Assembly (NCBI GenBank): GCA_024223125.1
Contig: JAAEOP010001293.1
Span: 1-6,721, forward strand
Direction of reading: 5' to 3'
Source of the DNA: Chloroflexota bacterium
GTDB lineage: Bacteria; Chloroflexota; Anaerolineae; Promineifilales; Promineifilaceae
Length of the DNA stretch: 6,721 nt
Shown: positions 448-6,414 of the stretch, one piece after another
Position numbering within the stretch: the stretch's first letter is position 1
Layout: each line of letters starts with the position of its first letter
Program-made: the position numbers and the translations under genes
The notes under the pieces: model-generated
Told to the model about the DNA's origin: nothing
Databases searched by the model: none
What the model saw: only the letters and a program-made list of their open reading frames with translations

Positions 448-2238
448 TCATTTGTTCTGATTATCCTTACGGCCGCGACGAGAGATAAAAATTAGCGCAG
501 CCGACAAAATACCAGCCGCGCTGACAATGCTCCATCCCAACTGGCCCAATCGTCTTTCGATTTTATCGTACCGTTTTAATATTTCCCGGTCGCTCTGGGT
601 ACGAATCTGGCCTCGTTCGGCCATATCCAGCAGCTTTTTCACCTGGCCGGGCGTTTCCAGATACGGCCGTATCATTCCCCAGGCCGTCTCCAAAGTCAGC
701 TTTTGCGCTTCCCCGCTTTGTACCAATGTTTCGCCATACTTTTCAAAGTAATACCAGGGGTTAATCTCTTCATCTAATAAAGAGATCAGCCCAGAGACCA
801 TACCCAGCGCCCGTCCCAGGTAGATAAAATCTTGGGGCACTTGAATGGGAAACTCAAACAGCAGGTCGCGGAACTCTTCCCCAATTTCCTGCACTTCGGC
901 CGGATCGGGGCGGGCCAATTCCAACAAACTACGCCCCCAGATGCGATTCAAAATGGACGTTTGCGCTTCGGCAATACGTTCCAAATCGGCGTCGGGTAGG
1001 AAGAAGCCCAGATTGGCATACGCTTCGGTTAGCTCACGGCCGTCGCGCTGCAACACACTGACCAACATCTTACGCAAATTTTCGCCTACCAAATCAGGCA
1101 CACGGCCGACCATGCCGAAATCTACAAAAATGAGCCAATACGGCCGTCCCAGTCGCGGTTGGTTGCCATTCATAGAGTAAACCCAGGGGATGTCCTCTCG
1201 CGGCCGTACAAACAGATTGCCCGGATGGGGGTCGGCATGGAAAAAAGCTTCCTCAAAAATCTGCTGGAAATACGTATCCAGCAGCGCCCCGGCCACTTCT
1301 TTAGGATCAATCCCCACCGCTTTCATCCCTTCCAGGTCGGTAATGCGAATACCTTCCACATTTTCCAGCACAATAACCCGTTTGGTAGAATGTTGGCGGT
1401 AAACGGTCGGGATGTACACTTGCTCGCTTTCAGCGTACATCTCCGCAAACCGTTCCGCATGATCGGCTTCCAGTTCGTAATCCAACTCTTCCCAAAGAGT
1501 GTGGGCAAACTCTTCCATCAACGTCGGCAAATCGGCGCGACGGCCAATAGGCTTATAACGCATAATGATACGGGCCACCACCTGCAGCGCGTCCAGGTCT
1601 GTTTGCACGATGCGTTCAATATTGGGCCGCTGAATTTTGATGACGACGGGGGTGTGACGGCCGTCTCCCCCTTCCAACCACGCCCGATGTACTTGCCCCA
1701 ATGAGGCGGCCGCCATCGGTATCTCTTCGATATGCACAAACCGGTCTTCATAGTCAGGGATTTCCTGCTGCAAAATACCCAGCATCCGCCAGGTTGGTTC
1801 GGGCGGCACTTCATCTTGCAAGCCGCGCAGCTCTTCCGTAATTTCCTCTGGCAGCACATCTACCCGGGTGCTTAAAAACTGGCCCAATTTGATCATCACG
1901 CCGCCCATTTCTAGAGCCAGGGCGCGGAAACGGCGGGAAGCGTTACGCAGTCGCACCGGACGGCGAGAGCGTATCCAATCGCCCAGCAAAGGCAGTCGGG
2001 CTAGAAGCAAATCCCACAGTATAATCTGGCCGATAATGACACCAAAAAAGAAGACGATACGCTGGTAACGGCCGTGTACCTGAAAATGTGCATATTGGAT
2101 GGGTAGTTGGGTGGGGGGATCGGGGTGAGAATGGCCACTGTCTAGGGGGTAAACACGGCCGTACACCTGCTCTTGTTGTTCATCCTGCTGCGAAACTGCC
2201 ATAGGGGGAATGATACATAAAAAACCCTTACCCTGCAC
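448..2238 (-). CDS. ABC1/UbiB-family atypical protein kinase (ADCK-like), membrane-anchored
   Basis: This complete 596-residue member of the ABC1/ADCK/UbiB family is an atypical kinase/ATPase group linked to quinone biosynthesis and lipid homeostasis. Visible hallmarks in order: the KxGQ motif K117-L-G-Q120 followed by STRVDVLPEE; the Ala-rich loop A176-A-A-S-L-G-Q that replaces the kinase Gly loop; the nucleotide-binding lysine K201 in VVIKIQRP; ELDYELEA at 251-258; the catalytic HADPHPGN (D336, N341); and the DFG motif D373-F-G. Hydrophobic segments at about 60-80 and 568-586 suggest membrane anchoring at both ends. The stated start is a GTG with AAGG 8 bases upstream. An ATG at codon 13 (2200-2202) is the alternative, but it lacks a visible Shine-Dalgarno. 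The gene is transcribed divergently from the ATPase gene. Family membership is certain. The substrate is unknown, and a strict ubiB label would be an over-call in a lineage that probably uses menaquinone. Confidence 0.95.
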   Translation of the reverse strand: MQGKGFLCIIPPMAVSQQDEQQEQVYGRVYPLDSGHSHPDPPTQLPIQYAHFQVHGRYQRIVFFFGVIIGQIILWDLLLARLPLLGDWIRSRRPVRLRNASRRFRALALEMGGVMIKLGQFLSTRVDVLPEEITEELRGLQDEVPPEPTWRMLGILQQEIPDYEDRFVHIEEIPMAAASLGQVHRAWLEGGDGRHTPVVIKIQRPNIERIVQTDLDALQVVARIIMRYKPIGRRADLPTLMEEFAHTLWEELDYELEADHAERFAEMYAESEQVYIPTVYRQHSTKRVIVLENVEGIRITDLEGMKAVGIDPKEVAGALLDTYFQQIFEEAFFHADPHPGNLFVRPREDIPWVYSMNGNQPRLGRPYWLIFVDFGMVGRVPDLVGENLRKMLVSVLQRDGRELTEAYANLGFFLPDADLERIAEAQTSILNRIWGRSLLELARPDPAEVQEIGEEFRDLLFEFPIQVPQDFIYLGRALGMVSGLISLLDEEINPWYYFEKYGETLVQSGEAQKLTLETAWGMIRPYLETPGQVKKLLDMAERGQIRTQSDREILKRYDKIERRLGQLGWSIVSAAGILSAALIFISRRGRKDNQNK

Positions 2239-2326
2239 GAAGGTAGCCTTTGTTTCTGTATGCGGGATGAAGATGATTGCGCGAACGGCCGTTTATTGTG
2301 TATGCTTGGTAAAAGGTCTTGTAGAT

Positions 2327-2330
2327 AAGG
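2327..2330 (+). promoter_or_regulatory. Ribosome binding site of the ATPase gene
   Basis: AAGG (within GATAAGG) lies 7 bases before the ATG at 2338, a good Shine-Dalgarno position. It fixes the start of the ATPase gene and shows that the gene has kept its own translation signal. Confidence 0.6.
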
Positions 2331-2337
2331 TTACACT

Positions 2338-2985
2338 ATGTTCAAAAAACTCACCCTGAAAAATTTCAAGAATTTCCAAAAAGCCGAATTATCCTTAGGC
2401 CCGTTTACTGTTCTGGTTGGCGCCAACGCCACCGGCAAAAGCAACCTGCGTGAAGCGTTCCGTTTTTTACACGGTATCGGCCGTGGTTACACTCTCCCCG
2501 AAATCATCGGCGAAAAATGGATCGAAGGCGGCGTCCCCATTTGGAAAGGAATAAGGGGTGGAACTCATGAATTAGCCTATTTTGACAACTGGAAACGTGT
2601 TCCCTCTCTGAAAGTTTCTTACCTCGACAACTCATTAGATTTTCAACATGTCATAAGTACGGGTATTCATCCTTCCCGTCTTTATTTATTGACCCAGCTT
2701 ATTGAAAGCCAAACAGCAAAAGGGAATATACAGGTTGTAGCCAGCACCCACTCACCACTGTTACTGAACTACCTGTCGCCGCAAACCCAAAAATTCACCT
2801 CCTTGCTTTACCGTTTGGACGGGGAACCAGACGCCCACATTCAGCCTGTTCTGGACATCCCCGACGCACCCCGGCTCATTCAGGAGCAAGGTTTGATGCA
2901 GCTGTATGAATCGGGTTGGCTGGAAGATGCCATGTTTTTGAATGAAGATGAACCTCAGGAACTCGTTGCCGAGGCTGTCTCTTGA
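2338..2985 (+). CDS. AAA/RecF-like ATPase with internal deletion (AAA_21/OLD-type)
   Basis: The N-terminus is typical of SMC/RecF-like AAA ATPases: a FKKLTLKNFKNF strand, then Walker A G28-ANATGK-S35. The C-terminus is also typical: a GIHPSRLYLL helix at about 109-118 and the conserved T137-H-S-P140, then a tail to ESGWLEDA. The middle is missing. The segment that should hold the ABC-type signature and the Walker B block (hydrophobics followed by EE/DE, directly before ENGIHP) is replaced by about 25 unrelated residues (84-108). From memory, relatives are about 350-400 residues; this one is 215. The frame stays open across the junction, which is AT-richer (about 40% GC at 2581-2700) than the 5' part. 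ATP binding may persist but normal hydrolysis should not. The stop overlaps the start of the TOPRIM gene. It is probably a decayed defence-type ATPase, possibly still translated. Confidence 0.75.
   Translation: MFKKLTLKNFKNFQKAELSLGPFTVLVGANATGKSNLREAFRFLHGIGRGYTLPEIIGEKWIEGGVPIWKGIRGGTHELAYFDNWKRVPSLKVSYLDNSLDFQHVISTGIHPSRLYLLTQLIESQTAKGNIQVVASTHSPLLLNYLSPQTQKFTSLLYRLDGEPDAHIQPVLDIPDAPRLIQEQGLMQLYESGWLEDAMFLNEDEPQELVAEAVS
2971..2974 (+). promoter_or_regulatory. Ribosome binding site deciding a TTG start
   Basis: GAGG lies 7 bases upstream of the TTG at 2982-2984, inside the end of the ATPase gene. The next in-frame ATG is at codon 24, beyond the first strand and acidic residues of the TOPRIM fold, so the TTG is the credible start. 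Confidence 0.6.
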
Positions 2986-3557
2986 AAGTTCTGGTCATTC
3001 CCGAAGATTTTACCCATGATCAATTTATTTTGAAGCCCATCATTCAGGCAATGATGAGCAATGTGGGCAAACCACACGCCAAAATCATTGTGTGTCATGA
3101 TCCAAAATTGGAGAGTGTTGAACAGGCCATGAACTGGTCACAAATCGAGGCAATTATTCAGAAATATGCCCTGATAAACCTCTTTCTACTTTGTGTAGAT
3201 CGGGATGGTCGGGAAGGTCGGCGGCAAGCGCTAGATAATTTAGAACAACGTGCGTCCGAAATCTTATCGGCAAACCGACTTTTTCTGGCAACGGCCGCCC
3301 GACAAGAAATTGAAACCTGGTTGCTGGCAGAAATGAGTGATTTACCTGTTGATTGGCAGTGGACAGATATTCAAAACGAACGTGATGTAAAGGAGGCTTA
3401 CTTTGCCAGGCAGCGTGGACTGCTGGATGCGTTATCACAAGGGCGCAAGATTTTGGGTAAGGAGGTGGCTGGTCGCTACGGCCGTATCCGCCAAATGTGT
3501 CCTGAAGTAGCCCAATTAGAAAATCGTATTGGCAACTGGATGGCTGCCAATACTTAA
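2982..3557 (+). CDS. TOPRIM-like protein partnered with the AAA ATPase (DUF4276-like)
   Basis: This 191-residue soluble protein has a TOPRIM-like layout. A first strand, KVLVIPE, ends at acidic E8-D9. A hydrophobic strand, INLFLLCVDRDG, carries the D73-x-D75 pair. A conserved-looking ARQEIETWLLA helix lies at 106-116. TOPRIM folds bind metal through Glu and DxD and catalyse phosphodiester chemistry in OLD nucleases, topoisomerases and primases. Small proteins of this kind commonly follow AAA_21-type ATPases. It begins at TTG within TTGA, so its start overlaps the ATPase stop, implying translational coupling. Unlike the ATPase it looks intact; the tail (QRGLL, GRKILGKEV, RYGRIRQ) appears complete. 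It carries an ACGGCCGT at 3478. The exact family (DUF4276 or a relative) is inferred from memory, and nuclease activity is an inference. Confidence 0.7.
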   Translation: MKVLVIPEDFTHDQFILKPIIQAMMSNVGKPHAKIIVCHDPKLESVEQAMNWSQIEAIIQKYALINLFLLCVDRDGREGRRQALDNLEQRASEILSANRLFLATAARQEIETWLLAEMSDLPVDWQWTDIQNERDVKEAYFARQRGLLDALSQGRKILGKEVAGRYGRIRQMCPEVAQLENRIGNWMAANT

Positions 3558-3562
3558 ATTAC

Positions 3563-5434
3563 ATGCCCTCATTCTTAACCCCCTTGTTTTTGCTGTTAGG
3601 CTTACTGGCTGTACCCATCATTGTGCTATACATGCTGCGGCTGCGGCGGCGGGAAGTGATGGTCAGTAGTACCCTGTTATGGCAAAAACTGCTGCGCGAC
3701 CGGGAAGCAAACGCTCCCTGGCAGCGACTGCGGCGGAATTTGTTGCTTCTTTTGCAACTGCTTATTTTACTGCTGTTGGTGTTGGCTTTGGCACGGCCGT
3801 TTTTACCCGTTCCCTCCGTCATCAACAACAGCGTCGTTGTTTTGTTAGATGGCTCCGCCTCCATGCAAGCTAATGATGTGGAACCCAACCGCTTCACGGT
3901 GGCTAAAGATGAAGTTCACCAGTTGATCAATGATTTGAGCGGCCGCAACCAGATGACCATTATTCAGGCCGGACAAACCCCGGCCGTCATTGCCGCCGCC
4001 ACCAATGATAAAAACAGCTTGCGCGACGCATTGAACGCTGCTCAACCAGAAACGGGCACGGCCGATTGGCAAGCTGCATTTGCTCTGGCGGCCGGCGCTG
4101 CCCAGGGTTTCCAAAATGCTCAGGTCGCCATCGTGTCTGACGGTGGTCTGCCTGCCGGTTTGCCCTCCCTATCAGCCGAAACCGTCTACATTCCCATTGG
4201 CAGCAGTGGTGAAAATTTGGCGATTACCGCTCTGGCTACGCGGGAAACGGCCGCAGGAATTGAACTATTCACCAGCCTTACCAACGAAGGCGTCTTGGAC
4301 CGGGAGACGCTCCTAAGTATCTCCCTTGACGGCACATTGTTTGATTCGCGGCAAGTAACAGTACCAGGACAAAGCATAGCCAGTGCAACCTGGACACTGC
4401 CGGCCAGAACCCAAATCATCCAGGCCCAATTGAGCGCTCAGGAGGGGGATTCCCTGACGCTGGACGATACCGCCTGGGCCGTGCATGAAGGCGGGGTCAG
4501 CAATCGCGCCCTCATCGTTACCGAGGGGAATCTGTTTTTAGAGCAGGTCTTTTCCGTGTTGCCGGGGATTGAGGCATTCAAAGCGTCGCCGGGCAGCGAT
4601 TTGCTGAACGACAATGATAACCCTTTTGATTTAGTTGTTTTCGATGGCGTACCCTTGCCCGACTCACCGCCTGATACCGATATGCTCATCCTCAAACCAC
4701 AAACAGGCGGAAGCGATTTGTTTACGGTAAATGGCGTCTTCTCAAACACGGTAACGGTGCAGCTGGCCGATTCACCCTTATTGCAATTTGTAGATTGGCG
4801 CAATGTGAATATACGGCAGGCGCAAAATGTAACCGCGCCATGGGCGCAAACATTGGTGCAGGCGGAAGGCGGCCCGCTTATTCAAATTGGGGAACGCAAC
4901 GGCCGTCGCCTGGCTCTGATGAATTTTGATCTGCGTGACTCTGATTTGCCGTTACAAATTGCATTTCCTATTTTGATGGCTAATATTACGGGCTGGCTAA
5001 GTCCGGGACGGCCGTTTGACGCCCCCACCGGTTTACAGCCCGGCGATCCTGTTTCCATTGCGCCGGGAGCGGGCACAACGGCCGTAACCATCATCAAACC
5101 AGATGGCGCTGCCTGGACAAACGAGGTGGGTGAAGAAGCCATTTTATTTACAGAAACAGACCAATTGGGTTTGTATCAGGTCATCCTGCGCGACAATACC
5201 GGGGAACGGGCGGCGGGCAGCTTTGCCGTCAATCTCTTTGATCAGGCCGAATCCCATATTCAACCGACAGAGCAGGTACAGGTGGGGCAAGAGACGGCCG
5301 TGACAGAAAGTGAAGGCGCTGTAGGGCAACGGGAATTGTGGCCCTGGCTAATTATCATCGGTTTTTTTGTTTTGCTGCTTGAATGGTGGATACATTATCG
5401 GGGCGTGCGTTGGCCCAAATTTAAGTTTCGTTGA
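3563..5434 (+). CDS. BatA-like von Willebrand factor A domain membrane protein
   Basis: The 623-residue protein starts with the BatA-type N-terminal region: two transmembrane helices, at about 5-25 and 58-79, with an Arg-rich loop between them (LRLRRRE and WQRLRRN). A VWA domain follows, with a full MIDAS metal site: D96-G-S-A-S100, Thr at 164 or 166, and D193 in VSDGG. A long, probably extracytoplasmic beta-rich region leads to a C-terminal helix at about 592-609 and a basic tail. Such proteins usually sit in operons with a MoxR ATPase and a DUF58 protein and are thought to act in metal-dependent protein assembly or stress tolerance at the envelope. Neither partner is visible here; an ATPase-TOPRIM pair precedes it by 5 bases instead. 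No strong Shine-Dalgarno is seen before the ATG. It contains five ACGGCCGT copies, so it looks native. Confidence 0.88.
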   Translation: MPSFLTPLFLLLGLLAVPIIVLYMLRLRRREVMVSSTLLWQKLLRDREANAPWQRLRRNLLLLLQLLILLLLVLALARPFLPVPSVINNSVVVLLDGSASMQANDVEPNRFTVAKDEVHQLINDLSGRNQMTIIQAGQTPAVIAAATNDKNSLRDALNAAQPETGTADWQAAFALAAGAAQGFQNAQVAIVSDGGLPAGLPSLSAETVYIPIGSSGENLAITALATRETAAGIELFTSLTNEGVLDRETLLSISLDGTLFDSRQVTVPGQSIASATWTLPARTQIIQAQLSAQEGDSLTLDDTAWAVHEGGVSNRALIVTEGNLFLEQVFSVLPGIEAFKASPGSDLLNDNDNPFDLVVFDGVPLPDSPPDTDMLILKPQTGGSDLFTVNGVFSNTVTVQLADSPLLQFVDWRNVNIRQAQNVTAPWAQTLVQAEGGPLIQIGERNGRRLALMNFDLRDSDLPLQIAFPILMANITGWLSPGRPFDAPTGLQPGDPVSIAPGAGTTAVTIIKPDGAAWTNEVGEEAILFTETDQLGLYQVILRDNTGERAAGSFAVNLFDQAESHIQPTEQVQVGQETAVTESEGAVGQRELWPWLIIIGFFVLLLEWWIHYRGVRWPKFKFR

Positions 5435-5442
5435 GCGAAAGT

Positions 5443-6414
5443 ATGGATTTTGATGAAGAACAGATTGGGGAAGTGGAACAGGGAGCGGGCGGTAAATTAC
5501 GGCCGCATCTCTTACAAATTGGCCTGCTGGGGTTGGCGGCGGCCGCCCTCATTGCCATTTTCCTATTTCTTAACTGGAATCAACCGGGACGGCCGTTGAG
5601 ACCATTTTACGCCACCCCCACCGGCATCAGCCTGATTGTAGATGGGCAGCCAGAGCTTGTTACCTTCCCTGAACTCAGCAATAATGCCGCCCAATATCAC
5701 AATCAGCGTATTCGCGTGACGGGGCGATATTTACGCCTGACGCTGCCAGAGTGCGCTCTTTACAATGGTCCGGTTATCCAATGGGCGCTTGTTTCAGATG
5801 GATTACAGTTAAACGCCCAGGGGTTTGAAAAGCCGCTGTCCATCATTTCTTCGGGGACTACATTAACGATCGAAGGTATCTGGCGACTTTATACCGGGCC
5901 GGTGGGCTGCGGTAAAGCGCCGCCGTCTGGTAATGTGTGGTATCTGGACGTGGAGCAGATAGTACAGCCCAATCCGCTTGTAGCCAGCACCCGTGACAGT
6001 TCGCTATTATCGGGCATAAATACCCCTGAATTTCCTGAGCTGGTTACCAGAACAGGCTCATCCGCTTCAGCCAATACGCCGACAAGTTTACCGACTGGCA
6101 CGGCCGTATTCCCCACCTCCACCGTAGAAACAGAAACAACGCCCTCAGCCACCCCGCTGCCCGGCAATCCTACGCCAACCGGGCCGCCTACCACACTGCC
6201 AACAATCACTCCTACTCCCACCCGATTTATCATTTCTCCGACGCCCACCGCTACCAACACTGGCAGCGCTGGTACCCCTACACCCACAGTCGGAAGCAGT
6301 ACCGCCACGCCGTCCGCCACCAATGGGCCGCCAACACAACCAACGACACTCCCCCCTTATCCAATCAATACGCCGCCGCCGGGGTCAACGCCATTGCCTA
6401 CGTCGTATCCTTAG
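5443..6414 (+). CDS. Single-pass membrane protein with Thr/Pro-rich tail
   Basis: No family is recognised with certainty. Residue numbers count from the TTG at 5431, the alternative start that overlaps the preceding stop as TTGA. The ATG at 5443 (codon 5) is preferred, with GAG 7 bases upstream. There is a short acidic cytoplasmic N-terminus, one helix at about 27-48, then a compact beta-rich domain at about 85-180. That domain (QRIRVTGRYLRL, TLTIEGIWRLY, VWYLDVEQIV) resembles an OB-fold, and its cysteines C108 and C160 could form a disulfide. Residues 211-327 are low-complexity: 34 Thr and 30 Pro of 117, ending PLPTSYP. Such tails are common in Chloroflexota surface proteins and may be glycosylated or span the wall. 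Tight linkage to the VWA gene suggests a shared envelope role. Confidence 0.8.
   Translation: MDFDEEQIGEVEQGAGGKLRPHLLQIGLLGLAAAALIAIFLFLNWNQPGRPLRPFYATPTGISLIVDGQPELVTFPELSNNAAQYHNQRIRVTGRYLRLTLPECALYNGPVIQWALVSDGLQLNAQGFEKPLSIISSGTTLTIEGIWRLYTGPVGCGKAPPSGNVWYLDVEQIVQPNPLVASTRDSSLLSGINTPEFPELVTRTGSSASANTPTSLPTGTAVFPTSTVETETTPSATPLPGNPTPTGPPTTLPTITPTPTRFIISPTPTATNTGSAGTPTPTVGSSTATPSATNGPPTQPTTLPPYPINTPPPGSTPLPTSYP

Follow-up and report, generated by a model that had tools for sequence, protein, structure and literature searches.

A highly iterated palindrome of the cyanobacterial HIP1 kind in Chloroflexota

The octamer ACGGCCGT is a highly iterated palindrome (HIP) of the same kind as HIP1 of cyanobacteria, and it is a new one, with another core and an outer base pair that is specific to the lineage. 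The debated cyanobacterial HIP puzzle now has a counterpart in a second phylum, Chloroflexota. There is still no agreement on what causes HIP1, and its main discussion rests on cyanobacteria, according to the available text of Elhai 2015. An open-access search by titles and listings found no literature on such a palindrome in Chloroflexota. Related genomes span several states: little or no motif, the core only, the core with A-T and, in two genomes, G-C or T-A. Since lineages are in different states and phage records also bear the motif, the cause is testable, as the gene behind it would be expected to follow these states.

Occurrence in the window and in related genomes

The window (the whole stretch of DNA analysed, 6,721 nucleotides) has 15 exact copies of ACGGCCGT between 663 and 6107. 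The mean of 200 dinucleotide shuffles is 0.15 (shuffle maximum 2) and the order-2 Markov expectation is 0.24, so the initial annotation was right to place the count far above chance. ACGGCCGT is the top-ranked octamer of the window, and the runner-up palindromic octamer has 3 copies. The annotation also described many one-mismatch copies; their excess is real (9 vs about 2.7 expected), but "many" is a slight overstatement. All nine keep the core CGGCCG intact and differ at the first or last base only. As annotated, the exact copies use all three codon phases (TAV 3, GR 6, RP 5) in genes on both strands, with one intergenic site at 2285. The sites, with no strand assigned, are as follows.

Exact copies of ACGGCCGT:
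663..670, ABC1/AarF gene, frame RP
1036..1043, ABC1/AarF gene, frame GR
1140..1147, ABC1/AarF gene, frame RP
1657..1664, ABC1/AarF gene, frame GR
2068..2075, ABC1/AarF gene, frame GR
2155..2162, ABC1/AarF gene, frame GR
2285..2292, intergenic, flanked by divergent ABC1 and AAA genes
3478..3485, DUF4276-like gene, frame GR
3793..3800, BatA/VWA gene, frame RP
4899..4906, BatA/VWA gene, frame GR
5008..5015, BatA/VWA gene, frame RP
5078..5085, BatA/VWA gene, frame TAV
5294..5301, BatA/VWA gene, frame TAV
5589..5596, gene of unknown function, frame RP
6100..6107, gene of unknown function, frame TAV

One-mismatch copies, core CGGCCG intact and a single outer base altered:
469..476, ACGGCCGC
1102..1109, ACGGCCGA
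1200..1207, GCGGCCGT
2477..2484, TCGGCCGT
3291..3298, ACGGCCGC
3980..3987, CCGGCCGT
4058..4065, ACGGCCGA
4247..4254, ACGGCCGC
5499..5506, ACGGCCGC

Genome-wide tests were made on relatives of the window's genome. Nine of the 27 related genomes searched (27 of 37 candidate loci were taken for whole-genome counts) have 6,514-15,176 copies of ACGGCCGT each, or 1.15-2.09/kb, and at least 0.99/kb is reached in 18 of the 396 genomes of the class (range 0.99-2.1/kb). Together with G002, G005 and G007, which lie outside the 396-genome survey and have 1.67-2.09/kb, these 18 make up the 21 octamer genomes referred to below. The proposed genome-wide parallel to HIP1 is borne out by these counts, and the relatives show neither of the outcomes named as speaking against it: their counts do not approach chance level across the genome, nor is the enrichment limited to the window. 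The window is presumably a piece of a Chloroflexota chromosome, with the whole genome studded about twice per kb with ACGGCCGT. An AarF tree covers the 27 counted genomes and 12 of 16 further loci, four duplicates being left out; the AarF search gave no match in G174, G256 and G385.

G003 (540 kb) has 970 copies, against 21.9 (order-2) or 38.5 (order-3) expected. On one 540-kb contig, with the author's own ORF calls, the observed/expected ratio is 26, 50 and 88 in the three codon phases and about 60 in noncoding DNA (119 copies vs 2.0 expected). Enrichment in every phase and in noncoding DNA makes this a DNA-level feature rather than a product of protein selection, as had been argued from the window. 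An origin in codon usage, base composition or repetitive protein sequence would be compatible with the window taken alone, but 26- to 88-fold enrichment in all phases and noncoding DNA is the very finding which that reading forbids, and the runner-up palindromic octamer of G003 is at expectation (39 copies vs 39.3); the probability of such an origin is negligible. The spacing of ACGGCCGT is random (CV 1.045 vs 0.999 for random, sd 0.033), so the sites behave as if acting singly. Random spacing gives no pointer to a structural function.

The core, the outer pair and the likeness to HIP1

Some relatives have the core CGGCCG with varied flanks, and samples of two genomes show the other outer pairs, GCGGCCGC and TCGGCCGA, so that the outer pair by lineage is none, A-T, G-C or T-A. 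In six more genomes that were candidates for other outer pairs (G222, G252, G105, G165, G171 and G288), samples of 8-15 kb had no enriched CGGCCG octamer. The one-base variants of G003 number 121 at the outer position vs 81 over the three inner half-site positions (strand-averaged). Inner variants are near or below expectation, the largest ratio being 8.0 vs 5.7 expected, and the only variant clearly raised is the outer ACGGCCGA, threefold at 49 vs 16.6. C-to-T variants at the three C positions of G003 show no clear excess (19.5 vs 25.1, 8.0 vs 5.7 and 9.5 vs 13.4 expected).

HIP1 (GCGATCGC) is likewise a genome-wide palindromic octamer, at about 0.5-2.5/kb, with a 6-bp palindromic core (CGATCG in HIP1, CGGCCG here), a favoured outer pair and one-base variants that gather at the first and last base. 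It differs in belonging to the cyanobacterial phylum and having the CGATCG core, whereas the motif here belongs to Chloroflexota and has CGGCCG. A 2011 survey cited by Elhai reportedly covered HIP1 among prokaryotes. Alternate cyanobacterial HIPs include TCGATCGA, GGGATCCC, GGCGCC, RCCGGY and GCSGC (from the available text of Elhai 2015), and TCGATCGA and GCGATCGC represent an outer-pair swap on a constant core, comparable to the series ACGGCCGT, GCGGCCGC, TCGGCCGA and CGGCCG. That text reports a putative cognate methyltransferase in every one of its genomes with highly overrepresented sequences, and a CGATCG enzyme missing from some HIP1 genomes. Among the Chloroflexota motif genomes, in contrast, not all match the main cytosine-methyltransferase families, and G003 and G025 have no clear member of them. 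ACGGCCGT is also dense in some phage records, while Elhai 2015 has no mention of phage or virus.

Retention of sites, methyltransferases and phage records

Orthologous ACGGCCGT sites in a genome pair of 93.3% identity were retained in 122 of 127 cases, vs 61-65% for octamers of the same composition. Divergence is 0.02-0.065 across the eight bases vs 0.12-0.14 in the flanks at 1-30 bp (401 site comparisons in six of the nine genome pairs), and the slow-down stops sharply at the octamer edges. The loss-rate ratio of ACGGCCGT to same-composition octamers is 0.086-0.253 over nine pairs that share genomes, i.e. loss is about 4-12 times slower (a first run covered seven of the nine pairs, and a repeat all nine). 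The ratio predicted for a fixation-bias equilibrium (O/E 25-44) is 0.134-0.088, for creation only 1, and for protection only 0.02-0.04. In each of the nine pairs the 95% interval overlaps the range predicted for fixation bias and stays below 1; the point estimates lie above 0.088-0.134 in seven pairs, and the intervals of two extend to protection-only values. Gains and losses were both present in four of five gain/loss runs, the fifth (G371 and G394 with outgroup G001) being empty. A pure mutation bias that creates sites, one of the causes initially suggested, fits poorly because losses are suppressed as well. The rough agreement of enrichment and loss rate gives a scaled S of about 2.3-3.8, a figure that any mechanism must satisfy and that argues against creation-only models. 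Biased repair or gene conversion acting site by site is mathematically identical to weak selection.

Methylation of ACGGCCGT appears weakened as an idea by the cytosine-methyltransferase profile searches, which covered 27 genomes, among them 9 of the 21 octamer genomes. PF00145 has matches in 11 of the 27 and in six of the nine octamer genomes searched, but was not found in the octamer genomes G001, G003 and G007 or in the core-type G025; G003 and G025 are MAGs. Its strongest matches, putative enzymes that may read the motif or another site, include those of the core-type G013 and G015 and the mixed G014 (6.9e-79, 6.4e-84 and 5.6e-100). PF01555 is matched in 26 genomes, 22 above the cut-off; it is marginal in G003 (4.6e-4) as well as in G013, G015 and G016, and absent from G025. 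The suggested methyltransferase link is weakened by G003 and G025, which have neither PF00145 nor a clear PF01555 match, and keeps some standing through the putative enzymes of other motif-rich genomes. PF02384 (N6 methylases) is present in 27 of 31 genomes and absent from the octamer genomes G190 and G380 and the core-type G015 and G025; G003 has four matches, and so is not free of methyltransferases.

Of the 21 octamer genomes, 18 have the Dam-like D12 methylase (PF02086) at E <1e-50, and G007, G236 and G380 have a weak match or none; it was not found at all in the core-type G013, G015 and G025. A Dam-family gene occurs in 16 of 18 octamer genomes vs 167 of 378 other genomes of the class (Fisher p 1.7e-4, uncorrected for kinship); its neighbours are conserved, and no restriction gene is apparent among the ORFs listed for G003 and G371. 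The proteins, recognition stretch included, are similar to Dam and DpnM, which makes GATC their probable target, and ACGGCCGT does not contain this site. The Dam-like methylase was dropped as the answer given this resemblance, the presence of Dam in 183 of 396 class genomes and the spread of the proteins over several clades. Phosphorothioation (Dnd) was also set aside, as dndC is above the cut-off in only 4 of 40 genomes (G001, G005, G018 and G236, or 4 of the 21 octamer genomes), with a partial match in G217. A restriction site under avoidance was rejected too, since the octamer genomes, and likewise the 14 virus records chosen, are strongly enriched in ACGGCCGT rather than depleted of it. 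In three Lake Biwa Chloroflexi draft genomes, GANTC, TTAA and GCWGC are listed as methylated in the available part of PMC6329791.

The 14 IMG/VR records, chosen by density after a paired-site scan so that their values are selected upwards, have ACGGCCGT at 0.92-3.47/kb, and five exceed the densest host genome (2.1/kb). The tailed-phage records that bear ACGGCCGT carry terminase and portal genes, with a density like that of hosts. Their putative hosts, judging by the motif, would be ACGGCCGT-rich Chloroflexota. The one phage terminase tested, from G408, had no match in the 31 genomes searched, and a near-mode search of a plasmid collection gave no match.

A candidate reader and other explanations

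The explanation given most weight, and held tentatively, is that ACGGCCGT is a new HIP and the binding site of a putative cellular protein, and that a weak fixation bias at each site keeps it in place. A trans-acting protein would recognise the palindrome in any DNA inside the cell, and each copy would bring a very small advantage, so that sites would be maintained by weak fixation bias at the S estimated above rather than by a creation-only process. The reader would most likely be a DNA-binding protein that is abundant, sequence-specific and engaged in chromosome maintenance, and a candidate role in the nucleoid, segregation or recombination is favoured. Its recognition would vary between lineages in the outer pair.

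It is possible, though doubtful, that methylation-linked mismatch repair is at work, as proposed for HIP1 (available text of Elhai 2015): the core is marked, repair favours strands with new sites, and the palindrome accumulates with no function of its own. The HIP1-like architecture of core and outer pair and a density comparable to HIP1 (about 500-2500 per million in the same text) are consistent with this, as are the PF00145 matches of the octamer genomes and the distribution and neighbours of the Dam-family gene. The genomes with no PF00145 match argue against it, as do the marginal PF01555 match of G003 and its absence from G025; in G025 the PF02384 and PF02086 searches were negative as well, and the Dam-like proteins probably read another site. 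The model, in the available text, needs GmC and leaves the required A-T outer pair unexplained; C-to-T variants are in no clear excess, and if density had a set-point the sites might be evenly spaced, but random spacing is observed.

A Chi-like or self-DNA mark, by which a DNA-processing nuclease or a defence system would recognise DNA carrying the octamer as belonging in the cell, is unlikely. Chromosomes, plasmids and phages would all gain by carrying such a mark, and the dense phage records and the enrichment in all phases and noncoding DNA fit it, although the phage densities are biased upwards by choice. Chi in E. coli is much rarer than ACGGCCGT in the octamer genomes. Chi sites are short, host-frequent sequences, 8 bases long in E. 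coli, and HIP is discussed beside them, but those listed, GCTGGTGG and AGCGG, are non-palindromic, unlike ACGGCCGT (available part of PMC5101192); HIP1 has also been linked with plasmid recombination (available part of PMC9239245). The motif is short, conserved across related species and present at about 1-2/kb, which would suit an uptake sequence spread by molecular drive through natural transformation, an explanation that appears less likely still. The DNA uptake sequences of Neisseriaceae and Pasteurellaceae are also short, very abundant and genome-wide, but they are non-palindromic and their imperfect copies are enriched, as uptake drive should enrich imperfect sites too. ACGGCCGT is a perfect palindrome, equally dense in the chosen phage records, and the inner variants of G003 are not raised.

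Some way short of probable is a reading in which the octamer would be a DNA self-mark common to the lineage, its plasmids and its phages. A protein would read CGGCCG with the lineage-specific outer pair, any resident replicon would be weakly selected to carry about 2/kb, HIP1 would be an independent instance, and methylation would be a side issue.

The octamer in the window and its relatives

The 6,721-base window holds 15 copies of the palindromic octamer ACGGCCGT, against a mean of 0.15 and a maximum of 2 in 200 dinucleotide shuffles. No other octamer there comes close in number, and the runner-up palindromic octamer has three copies. Allowing one mismatch gives 24 matches and thus nine variants, all nine with the CGGCCG core whole. 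The copies read GR (six), RP (five) or TAV (three), and one is intergenic. The initial annotation therefore holds for a count far over chance and for the use of three codon phases and an intergenic site. The window carries these genes:

TPR gene (Pfam)
ABC1/AarF kinase-like gene (Pfam)
2338-3557, with its DUF4276-like neighbour: AAA_21 gene (Pfam; 215 aa, two matched stretches)
Within 2338-3557, beside the AAA_21 gene: DUF4276-like gene (weak Pfam match, under the curated cut-off)
BatA/VWA gene (Pfam)
Gene without Pfam assignment

The AAA_21 gene is perhaps internally shortened, since its match falls in two stretches. Together with its DUF4276-like neighbour it may form a two-gene defence or toxin-type module.

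The AarF-like protein of the window matches 37 loci among species genomes, the top five by identity (70-72%) being Chloroflexota MAGs labelled Ardenticatenaceae, Anaerolineae or Chloroflexi. Whole-genome counts for 27 genomes from these loci, with the reversed pattern as control, give 6,514 to 15,176 copies of ACGGCCGT (1.15-2.09 per kb) in nine, versus 64-459 reversed-pattern copies; the remaining 18 have 0-8 copies (four genomes) or 134-2,982 (14). The class of G003, an octamer-rich genome, was surveyed over 396 genomes: 18 have densities between 0.99 and 2.1 per kb, followed by G014 (0.51 per kb) and G174 (0.42 per kb). These two surveys bear out genome-wide enrichment in relatives. In an AarF tree with 40 rows, the window groups solely with octamer-rich genomes, and its own smallest starred sets (5 and 6 rows) are all of this kind. 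Octamer-rich genomes form no single clean clade, with a low-density Promineifilum group and G016 among them and the base open, and motif loss or repeated gain is therefore possible.

In 540 kb of one G003 contig, ACGGCCGT occurs 970 times against Markov expectations of 21.9 at order 2 and 38.5 at order 3, and no other palindromic octamer exceeds 39 copies, so that the proposed excess over a Markov model is confirmed here. Inner one-off variants are near or under expectation (largest ratio 8.0 vs 5.7), and outer ones number 27-49 against 17-38 expected, with ACGGCCGA up threefold. Spacing is random (CV 1.045 vs 0.999, sd 0.033, for random placement). By 350 simple ORF calls made for this analysis rather than standard annotation, 849 copies lie fully inside predicted genes (1.88 per kb), 119 fully outside (1.34 per kb; about 2.0 copies expected) and two straddle. 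O/E per codon phase is 26, 50 and 88 under a phase-specific model. Enrichment in all phases and in noncoding DNA agrees with the suggested DNA-level process, and the sequence phenomenon itself is near certain. The longest ACGGCCGT-free run, at about 239955-246386 of contig C2, spans 6.4 kb (mean gap 556 bases) and is possibly recent foreign DNA.

Maintenance of sites and METHYLTRANSFERASES

Between the genomes G371 and G394 (57 kb, 93.3% identity), 122 of 127 ACGGCCGT sites are kept, versus 61-65% of same-composition octamers; eight other genome pairs keep 73-95% versus 30-58%. In 401 site comparisons drawn from six pairs, the eight octamer bases diverge by 0.02-0.065, and the alignments as a whole average 0.103. 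Flanks diverge by 0.12-0.14 at 1-30 bp and 0.117-0.143 at 1-45 bp, slightly above that mean, and placement of sites in variable regions is the sole explanation that can be offered. Since the octamer bases are slow and the 1-30 bp flanks are not, protection stops at the octamer edge.

The tentatively favoured mechanism is a per-site fixation bias, a weak advantage set by a putative DNA-binding cellular protein, which would keep the copies. Across nine genome pairs the loss-rate ratio ranges from 0.086 to 0.253. Site creation only predicts 1 and conflicts with these ratios, whose intervals all lie below 0.52; protection only predicts 0.02-0.04, and fixation bias alone, at O/E 25-44, predicts 0.134-0.088. 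Each of the nine intervals overlaps the range predicted by fixation bias. The fit is support and not proof, because point estimates exceed this range in seven of the nine pairs, two intervals extend down to 0.017, and the pairs have genomes in common. Gains of ACGGCCGT occur as well as losses. Biased gene conversion as the cause of retention gives the same formula.

Methylation-linked repair ranks second and is rather unlikely. The Dam-like (PF02086) gene has conserved neighbours and lies in two different places in two genome groups; none of the ORFs listed near it in G003 and G371 looks like a restriction gene. In the stretch NGL.R.N....FNVP.GRYK.P its product agrees with E. coli Dam and DpnM, and this region presumably reads GATC. 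The gene's link with octamer-rich genomes may reflect shared ancestry, and methylase absence in MAGs may reflect incompleteness. The cytosine methyltransferase search took in nine of the 21 octamer-rich genomes.

The CGGCCG core and its outer pair

Samples of three core-type genomes hold 252 CGGCCG copies vs 37 expected (G013), 45 vs 7 (G015) and 247 vs 65 (G025), with flanks of almost every kind. G014 and G174 are of mixed type. Whole-genome counts of CGGCCG and the reversed 6-mer GCCGGC, used as control, are as follows.

Whole-genome CGGCCG/GCCGGC counts
G174: 21,019/132
G015: 19,809/1,835
G014: 19,906/768
G025: 25,568/7,284
G204: 13,814/51
G120: 9,713/3,681

Two further HIP-like palindromes share this core but have a different outer pair, in genomes of the same bacterial class: GCGGCCGC in G204 (29 of 34 CGGCCG, 23.6 kb) and TCGGCCGA in G120 (35 of 45, 20 kb). 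Each is based on one small sample (L358 and L360) plus the genome-wide core count. Cyanobacterial HIP1/TCGATCGA has a similar pattern to this core with a varying outer pair (PMC4390886). CGGCCG is almost missing from G021 (7 in 6.0 Mb vs 858 control), G264 (2 in 5.3 Mb vs 192), G133 (28 in 4.9 Mb vs 220) and G077 (16 in 3.7 Mb vs 1,479), the pattern that avoidance of GGCC-type restriction sites should give.

Phage and plasmid-like records

IMG/VR was scanned for two ACGGCCGT copies at most 30 bases apart, and 18 records were chosen among the matches listed. Densities are 0.92 to 3.47 per kb in the 14 taken for high density and 0.04-0.18 in the four low ones. Because selection was biased towards dense records, the dense fraction is meaningless. 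The octamer is 39-45x over expectation in G408, G409 and G418. Among 20 long ORFs scanned against PHROG, terminase and portal match in these three and G419, terminase in G415, head protease in G408 and G418, and tape measure in G408; these are therefore tailed phages or prophages. The G408 terminase has no match among 31 genomes, an empty result that says nothing on host. Pieces of G406 and G407 carry ParA, ParB and FtsK and look plasmid-like or phage-plasmid-like. One phage protein of G415 (L349:17852-19126) matches both DNA methyltransferase and ParB-like PHROGs.
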